From Gemmata massiliana (GTDB lineage: Bacteria; Planctomycetota; Planctomycetia; Gemmatales; Gemmataceae), in contig HG799467.1 in NCBI GenBank assembly GCA_000531095.1, positions 208,536-272,535 on the forward strand: a stretch of DNA of 64,000 nucleotides, given 5' to 3'. How positions within the stretch are numbered: position 1 is the stretch's first letter; each line of letters starts with the position of its first letter. Position numbers and translations under genes: made by a program. The notes under the pieces were generated by a model. It saw only the letters and a list, made by a program, of their open reading frames with translations. It did not search any database and was not told the DNA's origin. Below are positions 4,464 through 55,640 of this stretch, one piece after another.

Positions 4464-4592
4464 AACCTCCCCCCATCCCCCTCTCTATAAGGGAAGGGGT
4501 GAAGGCGCGTGGTGTCTTCGATGATAAGAGTCACGCCTACCACTGAAACAGTCTGCTCCCCTTCCCTTTAGGAGGGGACGGGGTAGGTCTTT
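4464..4592. repeat. GC-rich hairpin repeat pair (CCCCTCCCT...AGGGAAGGGG family)
   Basis: The gap between the PhyH gene and the LCCL gene holds two inverted copies of a short C-tract/G-tract repeat: AACCTCCCCCCATCCCCCT with its hairpin at 4464-4500, and the reverse copy ending GGACGGGGTAGGT at 4556-4592. Each copy is itself a small hairpin, and the pair forms a larger one. The same family recurs at 14695-14733 and, in at least six copies, inside tilS at 41408-41755. Confidence 0.7.
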
Positions 4593-37695: not shown

Positions 37696-38593
37696 TCACT
37701 TCAGCAAGCCGTAGTTCACGAGCGTCTGGCGCACCTTCGCTTCGCCGGCCGCGTCGATCGGGCACATCGGCAGGCGCATCTCGCCGTTGCCGCGCCCGAG
37801 GAGCTTTATCGCGGTCTTCAGCGGGATCGGGTTCGTCGCCACGCCGAGCATGTCGCGGCAGAGCGGGAACAGCTTCCGGTGCCACTGAAGTGCTTCGTCA
37901 AACTTACCCGCGGCGAACGCCTTTCACCAGCGCCATCATGTCGCGCGGGACGATGTTACCAACCACGCTCACCACGCCCTTGCCGCCGATGCTCATGAGC
38001 GGAAGCGTGAGGCTGTCATCGCCGCTCAAGATCGTGAGGTCGGTGAGGGCCGCGACCTGCGAGGCTTGGTCCAGGGAGCCGGTTGCTTCCTTCACGGCGA
38101 CGATCGTGGGGCACTTCTCGGCCATTCGCGCGAGCGTTTCGGGCAGGATGTTGCTCGCGGTGCGGCCCGGGATGTTGTAAACGACGATCGGGAGGTCGGT
38201 GGCTTCCGCGAGCGCGGCGAAGTGGCGGAAGTAGCCCTCTTGCGTCGGCTTGTTGTAGTACGGGCCGACTTGCAGCGTACCGTTCGCGCCGGCCTTCTTC
38301 GCGGCCTTCGTCATCCGGATCGCTTCGGAGGTCGAGTTCGATCCAGTGCCGGCCATGATCTTCGTGCGCCCGCGGGCACGCTCGCACACGAACGAGACCA
38401 CGCGCTCGTTCTCGTCGTGCGTGAGGGTCGGCGACTCACCGGTGGTGCCGCACGGCGCGAGCGCGTCGGTGCCCTGCTCGCAGTGCCAGTCCACGAGTTT
38501 GCCGAGTTCGTCCCAATCGACTTCGCCGTTCTTGAACGGGGTGATAATGGCGACGGTGACACCGGCGAACAACTCGCCGCGAGTGGCAGCCAT
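37696..38593 (-). CDS. dapA: 4-hydroxy-tetrahydrodipicolinate synthase, one-base frameshift
   Basis: Condenses pyruvate with aspartate semialdehyde, the first committed step of the lysine/diaminopimelate pathway. [20 protein letters not shown] opens the barrel. [18 protein letters not shown] is signature 1, [14 protein letters not shown] is the Tyr region, and the Schiff-base Lys is in [15 protein letters not shown]. The frame ends early at 37904, but removing one base near 37919-37921 restores [20 protein letters not shown] and continues to the natural end LVNYGLLK with stop at 37696. Full length would be about 298 residues. Either a sequencing indel or a new mutation in an essential gene. 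GAGG 8 bases before ATG 38593. Confidence 0.88.
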
Positions 38594-38706
38594 GACGAAC
38601 CTCGGCACGTTAGAAGGAGCTATTTCGTTAAGGAGTCAAGTTACGGAACGTTGCGGGGGCGATCAAGTTTGACCGAAGAGCACCCGGGGTTGAAACCCGG
38701 GTTCCG

Positions 38707-40206: not shown

Positions 40207-40332
40207 CCGTGAACCCCCCTTACAACAGAATTCGGCAACAGAATTCGGAAGACAGTATTCGGAGAACCGCGGGCAGAGTCGGCGCTTTGGGCGCTCCGCG
40301 CCCGTAGCCCGTCGATTTCTGCCCGCCGGTTC

Positions 40333-40925: not shown

Positions 40926-42267
40926 TTGGAATTCTACTCGGAGCGGGAACGTAGCGTGACGCGCGTGTTGCGGGCGGTACGGCGGTTTACGGCGAGTCGG
41001 CCGGGACCGGGCGTTGTGGCAGTTTCCGGTGGCGCGGACAGCGTGGCGCTCCTGTGTGCGCTGCGCGCGTGCGGCGCGGCTGTTGTCGTGGCGCACGTGA
41101 ACCACCGGCTCCGCGGAGAAGAGTCCGATGGCGACGAAACTTTCGTGCGCGAACTGTGCGCGGCGCTCGGCGCAGAGTGCTACGTTCGGAGCGCGGATGT
41201 AGCAGCCCTCGCGAGTGGGAGCAACCTCGAATCCACCGCGCGCCGGGTGCGGTACGAGTTCTTCGCGGAGGTGGCGCACGCGATCGGCGCGGCCTGGGCC
41301 GCGACCGCCCACACCGCCGATGACCAGGCCGAAACGGTGCTCCACCGACTGATTCGCGGCACGGGATTGCAGGGATTGCGGGGGATCGCGGCTGAGCGGA
41401 GGGCGGCAGAACCTACCCCCCCGCCCCCCTCCCTGAAGGGAAGGGGGAGCAAAGACAACCTAACCCCTAACCCCCTTCCCTAAGAAGGAAGGGGGAACAG
41501 AACCAAAAGCAGAAGCCGGCACATCGGAGACACTGGTTTTAAGCCCCTCTCCGTTTAGGGGAGGGGTTGGGGAGGGGTTACAGCCACAACCTCCCCCCCC
41601 GGCCCCCCTCCCTGAAGGGAATGGGGAGCAGGCGCGCGATCTCGCTGTGCTTGAGGCTACGTCGGCCGACGGTTCTTTCTCCCCCTTCCCTTCAGGGAGG
41701 GGGATGGGGGGGAGGTTCTGCCGGCAACTCCCTTCCCTTCAGGGAGGGGCGATTTCCGGGCTTTCCATCCTCCGCCCGCTCCTTACAGTTTCGCGCGTCG
41801 ATGTGCTGGCGTACCTCGCGGAGATCGATCAGCCGCACCGTACCGACAGCACGAATGCGGACACGAAGTTCACGCGCAATCGCATCCGGCACGAACTGTT
41901 GCCGTTGCTCAAAACATTTAACCCCGATGTCGTGTCCGCACTCACGCACCTCGCGGAGCACGCCACCGAAGCACACGAGGTGATTTCGTTCGCCGCGGCC
42001 GAGTTGCTCGCCCGAGCCGGGCGCCCCAGCGCCGCAAATGTGCGAATCCTCGACGCGAGTACGCTCGCCGGAGCACCGCGTGCCGTGACGCGGGCCGCGT
42101 TGCGATTGCTTTGGGAACGCGAGGGTTGGCCAATGAACGACATGACGTTTGATGCGTGGGAGCGCGCGGTCGAGGTTGCGTGTCGTAACGCCGGCGCCTG
42201 TGATTTTCCCGGTGGCATCAGCATGCGATCCGCGGGGCGGGTGGTTCAGATCGCGTCGCGAAAGTAA
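40926..42267 (+). pseudogene. tilS: tRNA(Ile)-lysidine synthase, interrupted by hairpin repeats
   Basis: TilS attaches lysine to C34 of tRNA-Ile(CAU) so that it reads AUA. The N-terminal part (40926-41407) is intact: ATP loop VVAVSGGADSVALLCALRAC, VVVAHVNHRLRGEESDGDE, and AHTADDQAETVLHRLIRGTG ending in LQGLRGIAAER. The C-terminal part reads LSILRPLLTVSRVDVLAYLA, TDSTNADTKFTRNRIRHELL and onward to the stop at 42267. Between them (41408-41755) lie about 350 bases of GC-rich hairpin repeats with a stop at 41481, and the two halves are in different frames (offset by one). A GTG at 41647 could restart the second half. Either a disrupted gene or a split enzyme. Confidence 0.85.
41408..41755. repeat. 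Array of six or so GC-rich hairpin repeats inside tilS
   Basis: Units begin near 41410, 41457, 41540, 41588, 41676 and 41727, each a C-run/G-run hairpin such as CCCCCTCCCTGAAGGGAAGG, with AACCTNCCCC edges in both orientations. The same family is found singly at 4464-4592 and 14695-14733. Spacing and orientation are irregular, which excludes a CRISPR array. The block separates the two halves of tilS. Confidence 0.85.
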
Positions 42268-55505: not shown

Positions 55506-55640
55506 TACCCCGTCGGGGTGAGATTCCTCAGCCCAGGGCAACGCCCTGGGATCTGTGTAGGGGCGACGAGCAACACGGTTCGCTGTTGGTATCCACCCAG
55601 GGCGTTGCCCTGGGCTGAGGAATCTCACCCCGACGGGGTA
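55506..55640. repeat. 45-bp perfect inverted repeat upstream of hisS
   Basis: Arms 55506-55550 and 55596-55640 are exact reverse complements with a 45-base spacer. Each arm contains smaller palindromes (ACCCCGTCGGGGT and CCCAGGGCAACGCCCTGGG). The structure ends 19 bases before the hisS start codon, so any folded transcript would sit directly in front of the hisS ribosome-binding region. Confidence 0.9.

Follow-up and report, generated by a model that had tools for sequence, protein, structure and literature searches.

Palindromes that code for protein have so far been known mainly from Rickettsia and from scattered intragenic REPs, and the Rickettsia palindromic elements (RPEs) were reportedly described by Ogata in 2000 and 2002. 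In GTAG REPs the palindrome bears GTAG as a tag on its 5' side, and a REPIN is built of a pair of REP-like hairpins, inverted to each other, and a spacer. In the portion of a MITE review drawn on here (PMC10969869) the Rickettsia elements are described as in-frame fusions with many genes, something that other prokaryotes are suggested to have as well. The cited part of another study (PMC3733652) places REPs within genes of several species, many of them genes of DNA synthesis and repair, including those of O. terrae of the PVC group. As both RPEs and intragenic REPs are on record, the kind of element considered here is already known. Searches of the open-access literature for such repeats in Gemmata, Gemmataceae or Planctomycetes, and for a palindromic insertion in tilS, gave no report of this among the matches listed (titles and beginnings of abstracts). 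As far as those matches show, what is new is the genus, the frame open on both strands, the position of most tested doublets in long frames and the recurrent use of one tilS loop.

The Gemmata element resembles RPEs in being a multi-copy palindrome of about 100-150 bp which lies in frame within unrelated genes and gives a recurrent peptide. It differs from them in belonging to another phylum, in being a hairpin doublet with a Pro/Gly-rich peptide (PTPPSPLPEGKGE...FSPFPSGRGDGGVGS), and in being open on both strands; by analogy, we would suggest that it works like an RPE and not that it is one. With the intragenic GTAG/CGTC REPs, as they appear in the cited part of PMC3733652, it shares the presence of REP dimers within genes, those of DNA synthesis and repair among them. 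Unlike those REPs, which are mostly intergenic according to the same source, 33 of the 44 Gemmata doublets tested are situated within long open frames. By eye the arm ends read AACCTAC...GTAGGTT, with no GTAG seen at the 5' end, which would put the tag on the opposite side. In having a pair of inverted, REP-like hairpins and a spacer it also resembles REPINs. According to the portion of PMC3116915 used here, REPINs are mobilised by RAYT transposases. A RAYT gene flanked by REP, the trait of the REPIN/RAYT systems, was not found in the genome under study, where three matches to PF01797 mark Y1 transposases with no type A 15-mer (see below) within 1.5 kb of any of them; a type B arm lies about 1.25 kb off the weakest match. 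RAYT was considered as the mover and set aside, none of the three transposases being tied to the type A element. No target-site duplication, a trait of MITEs, was seen by eye at the element ends.

The window, i.e. the whole stretch of 64,000 nucleotides that was analysed, is C6:208536-272535 of a genome (G000) of 9,269,192 bases in 22 contigs. In the window tilS is interrupted at about 41404-41752 by GC-rich hairpin repeats with a stop codon and a one-base offset, just as the sequence-only reading had described it with its figure of about 350 bases. The N-terminal half (40926-41483, plus strand) contains the PP-loop domain with SGGADS, an SGGxDS motif invariant in the relatives compared, and runs into the insert, where it ends with TAA at 41481-41483. 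In a profile search it matched ATP_bind_3 (E 1.1e-35) and positions 3-137 of TIGR02432 (E 1.2e-35, 123 bits versus a cut-off of 93.6). The C-terminal half (41647-42267, plus strand) is counted from its first start codon; its frame is preceded by TAA at 41461-41463, is open from 41464 to 42267, and matches TIGR02432 at positions 140-189 (E 1.4e-11). Hardly any profile position is therefore lost between the halves, which are readable and conserved, as had been claimed. Both frames share 17 nt on the plus strand (41464-41480), in runs of C of which one is shorter than in G008, the nearest relative; owing to this overlap, a one-base change in run length suffices to part them. The single open reading frame that the window lacks is found in 14 of the 16 tilS genes of the genus.

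The inserted palindrome array (41404-41752) occupies the loop between GLQGLRGI and LRPLL. Its first element is a lone arm of the type A palindrome (AACCTAC...CCCTCCCTGAAGGGAAGGG; 41410-41452, the ends taken from comparison of element copies), followed by a type B doublet (41458-41579, arms at 41473 and 41544) whose unit occurs also in G012, by a type A doublet (41588-41717) with 15-mers at 41606 (+) and 41687 (-), and by a trailing type A single arm (41728-41749); the edges of both doublets were set by eye. The insert contains five copies of a 20-nt arm at an identity of at least 70%, and its inverted repeats measure 43 nt (74% identity) and 37 nt (92%). The window's loop of 382 nt (41388-41769; 383 nt folded) has a fold energy of z = -8.9 against 100 dinucleotide shuffles. 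The genome contains 47 copies of the characteristic 15-mer, CCCTCCCTGAAGGGA, and none of its reversed control. The sequence-only reading had seen the same hairpin family elsewhere in the window; this is weakly borne out by one pair of this palindrome type, degenerate and apparently intergenic, at about 4470-4590.

It is very probable, in our judgement, that this gene gives a single TilS with translated mobile palindromes in its loop and that its break in the assembly is a homopolymer error. A mobile palindrome array would sit in a surface loop of TilS, the palindromes would be read through in frame, and the gene would yield a single TilS, about 445 aa in length, whose loop is long, disordered and rich in Pro and Gly. 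The copies would be translated and tolerated, and the frame break would come from miscalling of homopolymers in runs of C. The tilS insert itself is real and very likely translated, and it is one case of a habit found in several species of the genus.

The gene was present in 37 of 41 genomes searched and in 16 of the 19 within the genus. Besides the window's tilS, the only one of these 16 that is not a single open frame is that of G006, severed by contig ends within the repeat. In G008 a homologous palindrome array lies in frame within a tilS ORF of 433 aa, in G012 a type B doublet alone is likewise in frame, and most of the 14 single-frame genes of the genus hold a palindrome in the same loop. 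Bounded by GLxGLxG(I/M) and xRP(L/M)L (3 of 26 rows were unmatched and dropped), this loop has 12 aa in all nine motif-matched relatives outside the genus, from the same family or order, and from 7 to 114 aa within it; as the loops were taken from open frames, their lengths are multiples of three by construction and are no separate evidence. By fold energy the loops of G008, G010 and G015 hold palindromes of type A or B-like sequence, and those of G003, G009, G013, G014 and G016 carry palindromes of other sequences by eye, all in frame, the z of palindrome-bearing loops ranging from -4.7 to -12.8. The signal is weak in G005 (-2.3) and G012 (-1.8); fold energy gave no palindrome in the loops of G002, G011 and G017, and the loop of G001 is too short. 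The G013-type loop palindrome, GTGGGCAGTGGGCAGTGG, is found in 10 of the 19 genus genomes. On a tree of 20 TilS, built without rows G022 and G024 and with G009 and G014 scored as having no insert though the fold test later showed palindromes in them, the inserts require at least four changes, three of them forced by starred branches.

Neither the profile nor the protein search found tilS in G004, G007 and G018, the first of which is rated 100% complete; the gene may have fallen into a gap that the assembly has at the repeat, or may truly be absent. There the G008 TilS query matched the insert peptide instead. Nine such loci were translated, giving in-frame copies in MutL (G004) and RNase R (G007), the other seven having stops or no Pfam match; four listed matches lay outside this set. 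We lean towards the view, as part of a joint reading with the coding adaptation of the palindrome discussed below, that one TilS loop is a recurrent landing site, taken in different species by some six types of palindrome that look unrelated by eye.

A type A doublet consists of two inverted arms, each a hairpin, with the outer ends AACCTAC...GTAGGTT conserved, and measures about 132 bp, with a central core of 96 nt (99 or 102 in some copies). Its 15-mer was found in 12 of the 19 genus genomes, G000 included, and, with two hits each, in 2 of the 83 further genomes from the order, and the reversed control was absent from all 102 genomes. All 49 sites (75 hits of the 15-mer) were taken from G008, which is a single contig. 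According to coding scores, 28 of them have coding flanks on the same strand, with 22 in frame (p 1.2e-6 versus 1/3) and 20 stop-free; 17 sites have one coding side, three have neither and one has flanks on opposite strands. Among the six sites with same-strand flanks scored in differing frames, four can nevertheless be read across the element in an open frame. An open frame of at least 80 aa on each side was present for 17/21 doublets in G008, 7/10 in G012 and 9/13 in G002, compared with 150 of 360 same-length shuffled blocks put at random places. A score with fixed margins put 6 of the 21 G008 doublets in frame and stop-free, one in frame with stops, two in differing frames, six as one-sided, five with neither side coding and one on opposite strands. 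By the same score 6 doublets were in frame in G012, with 3 differing and 1 neither, and 6 in G002, with 1 having stops, 2 one-sided, 3 neither and 1 opposite. In view of these outcomes the coding score is noisy, and the open frames are clearer.

Of the 21 exact G008 doublets, 20 are stop-free in frame +3 and 19 in frame -3; frames +2 and -2 contain a stop in every one of them. Shuffling the spacers (2000 rounds) gave means of 12.0 (+3) and 13.0 (-3) with a maximum of 19 for each, so that the -3 count only ties the maximum. The respective frames are stop-free in 9/10 and 10/10 of the G012 doublets; G002 adds little here because its frames +1 and -1 are nearly stop-free too. In translation, 21 open-frame copies of G008 read (P)TPPSPLPEGKGE...FSPFPSGRGDGGVGS, with variants. 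The doublet length is a multiple of the codon in 36 of 40 cases in the clade of G000, G008 and G012 and in 15 of 35 in the other species listed, a count which takes in 6 of the 8 doublets of G001 and leaves out the 21 of G016. As a rule for the whole genus such a length fails, being confined to the clade.

Which proteins carry the element was looked at with Pfam. Matches were obtained for 19 of the 20 scanned G008 ORFs that run through a copy, the hosts here and in the other genomes having been picked for long frames and not at random. Among them are QueG, a RecD2-like helicase, CheA, an SMC hinge, CCA/poly(A) polymerase and CobW, and further U32 and M16 peptidases, penicillin amidase and a P-type ATPase, as well as MgsA/RarA, in which one domain is matched in two stretches. 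In G000, 3 of 16 scanned ORFs were judged to have the copy in frame between or within domains, namely in a carboxyltransferase (two stretches), a poly(A) polymerase and a SMUBP-type helicase; the rest had no match, a one-sided match or N. These observations lead us to suggest, with somewhat more belief than doubt, that the palindrome is adapted to coding sequence: with one frame stop-free on both strands and a length that is mostly a multiple of three in the clade, it could land and be read through in either orientation and would seed disordered Pro/Gly-rich segments into at least twenty or so conserved proteins.

An AlphaFold2 model of the G008 TilS (27 sequences) has a pLDDT of 81.1, with 291 residues at 90 or above and residues 172-262 nearly all below 50, and its best Foldseek match is 3a2k, TilS with tRNA. 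The model thus predicts the insert to be a disordered loop off an intact TilS enzyme. The enzyme does look needed in G000, in agreement with what had been claimed about reading AUA. ARAGORN, run at all places of the 78 tRNA matches of this genome, named four CAU tRNAs, and AUA makes up 88 of 57,810 codons (1.5 per 1000) in a mechanical ORF set, rare yet used. A tRNA-Ile with the UAU anticodon was considered as a bypass and set aside, there being none among the ARAGORN calls at these 78 places. The fourth CAU tRNA is among the genes of tRNA clusters, of which one has 19 genes at G000:C9:203900-207000 and another 13 at G000:C4:636000-639300.

Homopolymer undercalls are typical of pyrosequencing. 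The insert of G000 compared with that of G008 has one-base gaps at the C-runs at 41424 and 41464, among other length differences. Fifteen repeat sites of G000 were compared with their G008 orthologues, namely tilS and 14 sites out of the loci of 30 of the 47 15-mers; at 10 of the 15 the frames of the flanks differ in G000. In the 11 pairs with an open frame of at least 100 aa on each side in G008, G000 is out of frame in six (two with N) and in frame in five (one with N), a comparison which is asymmetric and biased by the selection of the G008 frame for openness; in the flanks of these sites the frame is changed in 1 of 22. This difference, six of 11 at repeat sites versus one of 22 in flanks, makes a homopolymer error probable. 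Three site pairs were aligned, one of them without a usable result; in the other two the gaps fall on C-runs that have fewer bases in G000. The portion of the Gemmata massiliana draft report used here (PMC4672568) gives 454 sequencing with Newbler assembly, 22 scaffolds, 9,249,437 bp and 76 tRNAs, from which we infer that G000 was made by 454 sequencing. On the sequence comparison, the apparent tilS split most likely goes back to miscalled homopolymers, in the runs of C that the palindromes contain.

Were the frame break real, it would be a young loss of function, with AUA read in another way or the strain impaired. The window contains no N (N runs exist in some contigs of the assembly) and AUA is rare, both of which would suit such a loss, but this tilS is the sole one found by a profile search of the whole assembly, which also leaves the second copy suggested by the sequence-only reading without a candidate. 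Together with the missing call of a UAU-anticodon tRNA-Ile, the good fit of both halves to the profile and five more orthologous inserts out of frame in the same assembly, this makes a real break improbable. Slippage at a C-run in transcription or translation, restoring a full-length product from the broken frame, would agree with the frame overlap falling exactly on C-runs; it seems more improbable still, given that 14 relatives encode the frame directly and that nothing pointing to a conserved slippery site was noticed.

Two further proposals of the sequence-only reading fare no better. Removal of the insert from the RNA could be imagined from its strong hairpins, yet it would give no selection for a stop-free frame through the copies, and such a frame is what they have; we give it very little credence. 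The conservation of both window halves would agree with a TilS working as two polypeptides, but the break falls inside the PP-loop domain profile and the relatives have one ORF, so that we hold this for the least credible of the readings. A translated palindrome array with a homopolymer error in its C-runs is what we continue to favour.

A genus in which most of the exact doublets tested lie in open frames, often those of conserved genes, would make the conversion of mobile DNA into protein sequence testable, together with its cost to host proteins and the selection for a frame open in both orientations. Also, homopolymer errors within such repeats can mimic split essential genes.

Several smaller observations were made besides. 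Close to its end, at 37922, the dapA gene of the window (37904-38608, minus strand) shifts into another frame relative to G008, from which it differs by one extra base. This is probably another base error, in a direction opposite to an undercall, G000 being longer and not shorter. A second gene of the DHDPS family, at C3:951291-952153, is split over two frames in G000, and both of these broken genes count in favour of errors in the assembly. A 264 kb error comparison aligned only the right part of the window to the G008 stretch and so gives no general error rate. At 55519-55596 the window has length differences relative to G008 in hairpin-like sequence that is not of the tilS family, and at 40224-40263 it carries a 13-bp tandem repeat, AACAGAATTCGGA, where it is 13 bases longer than G008.
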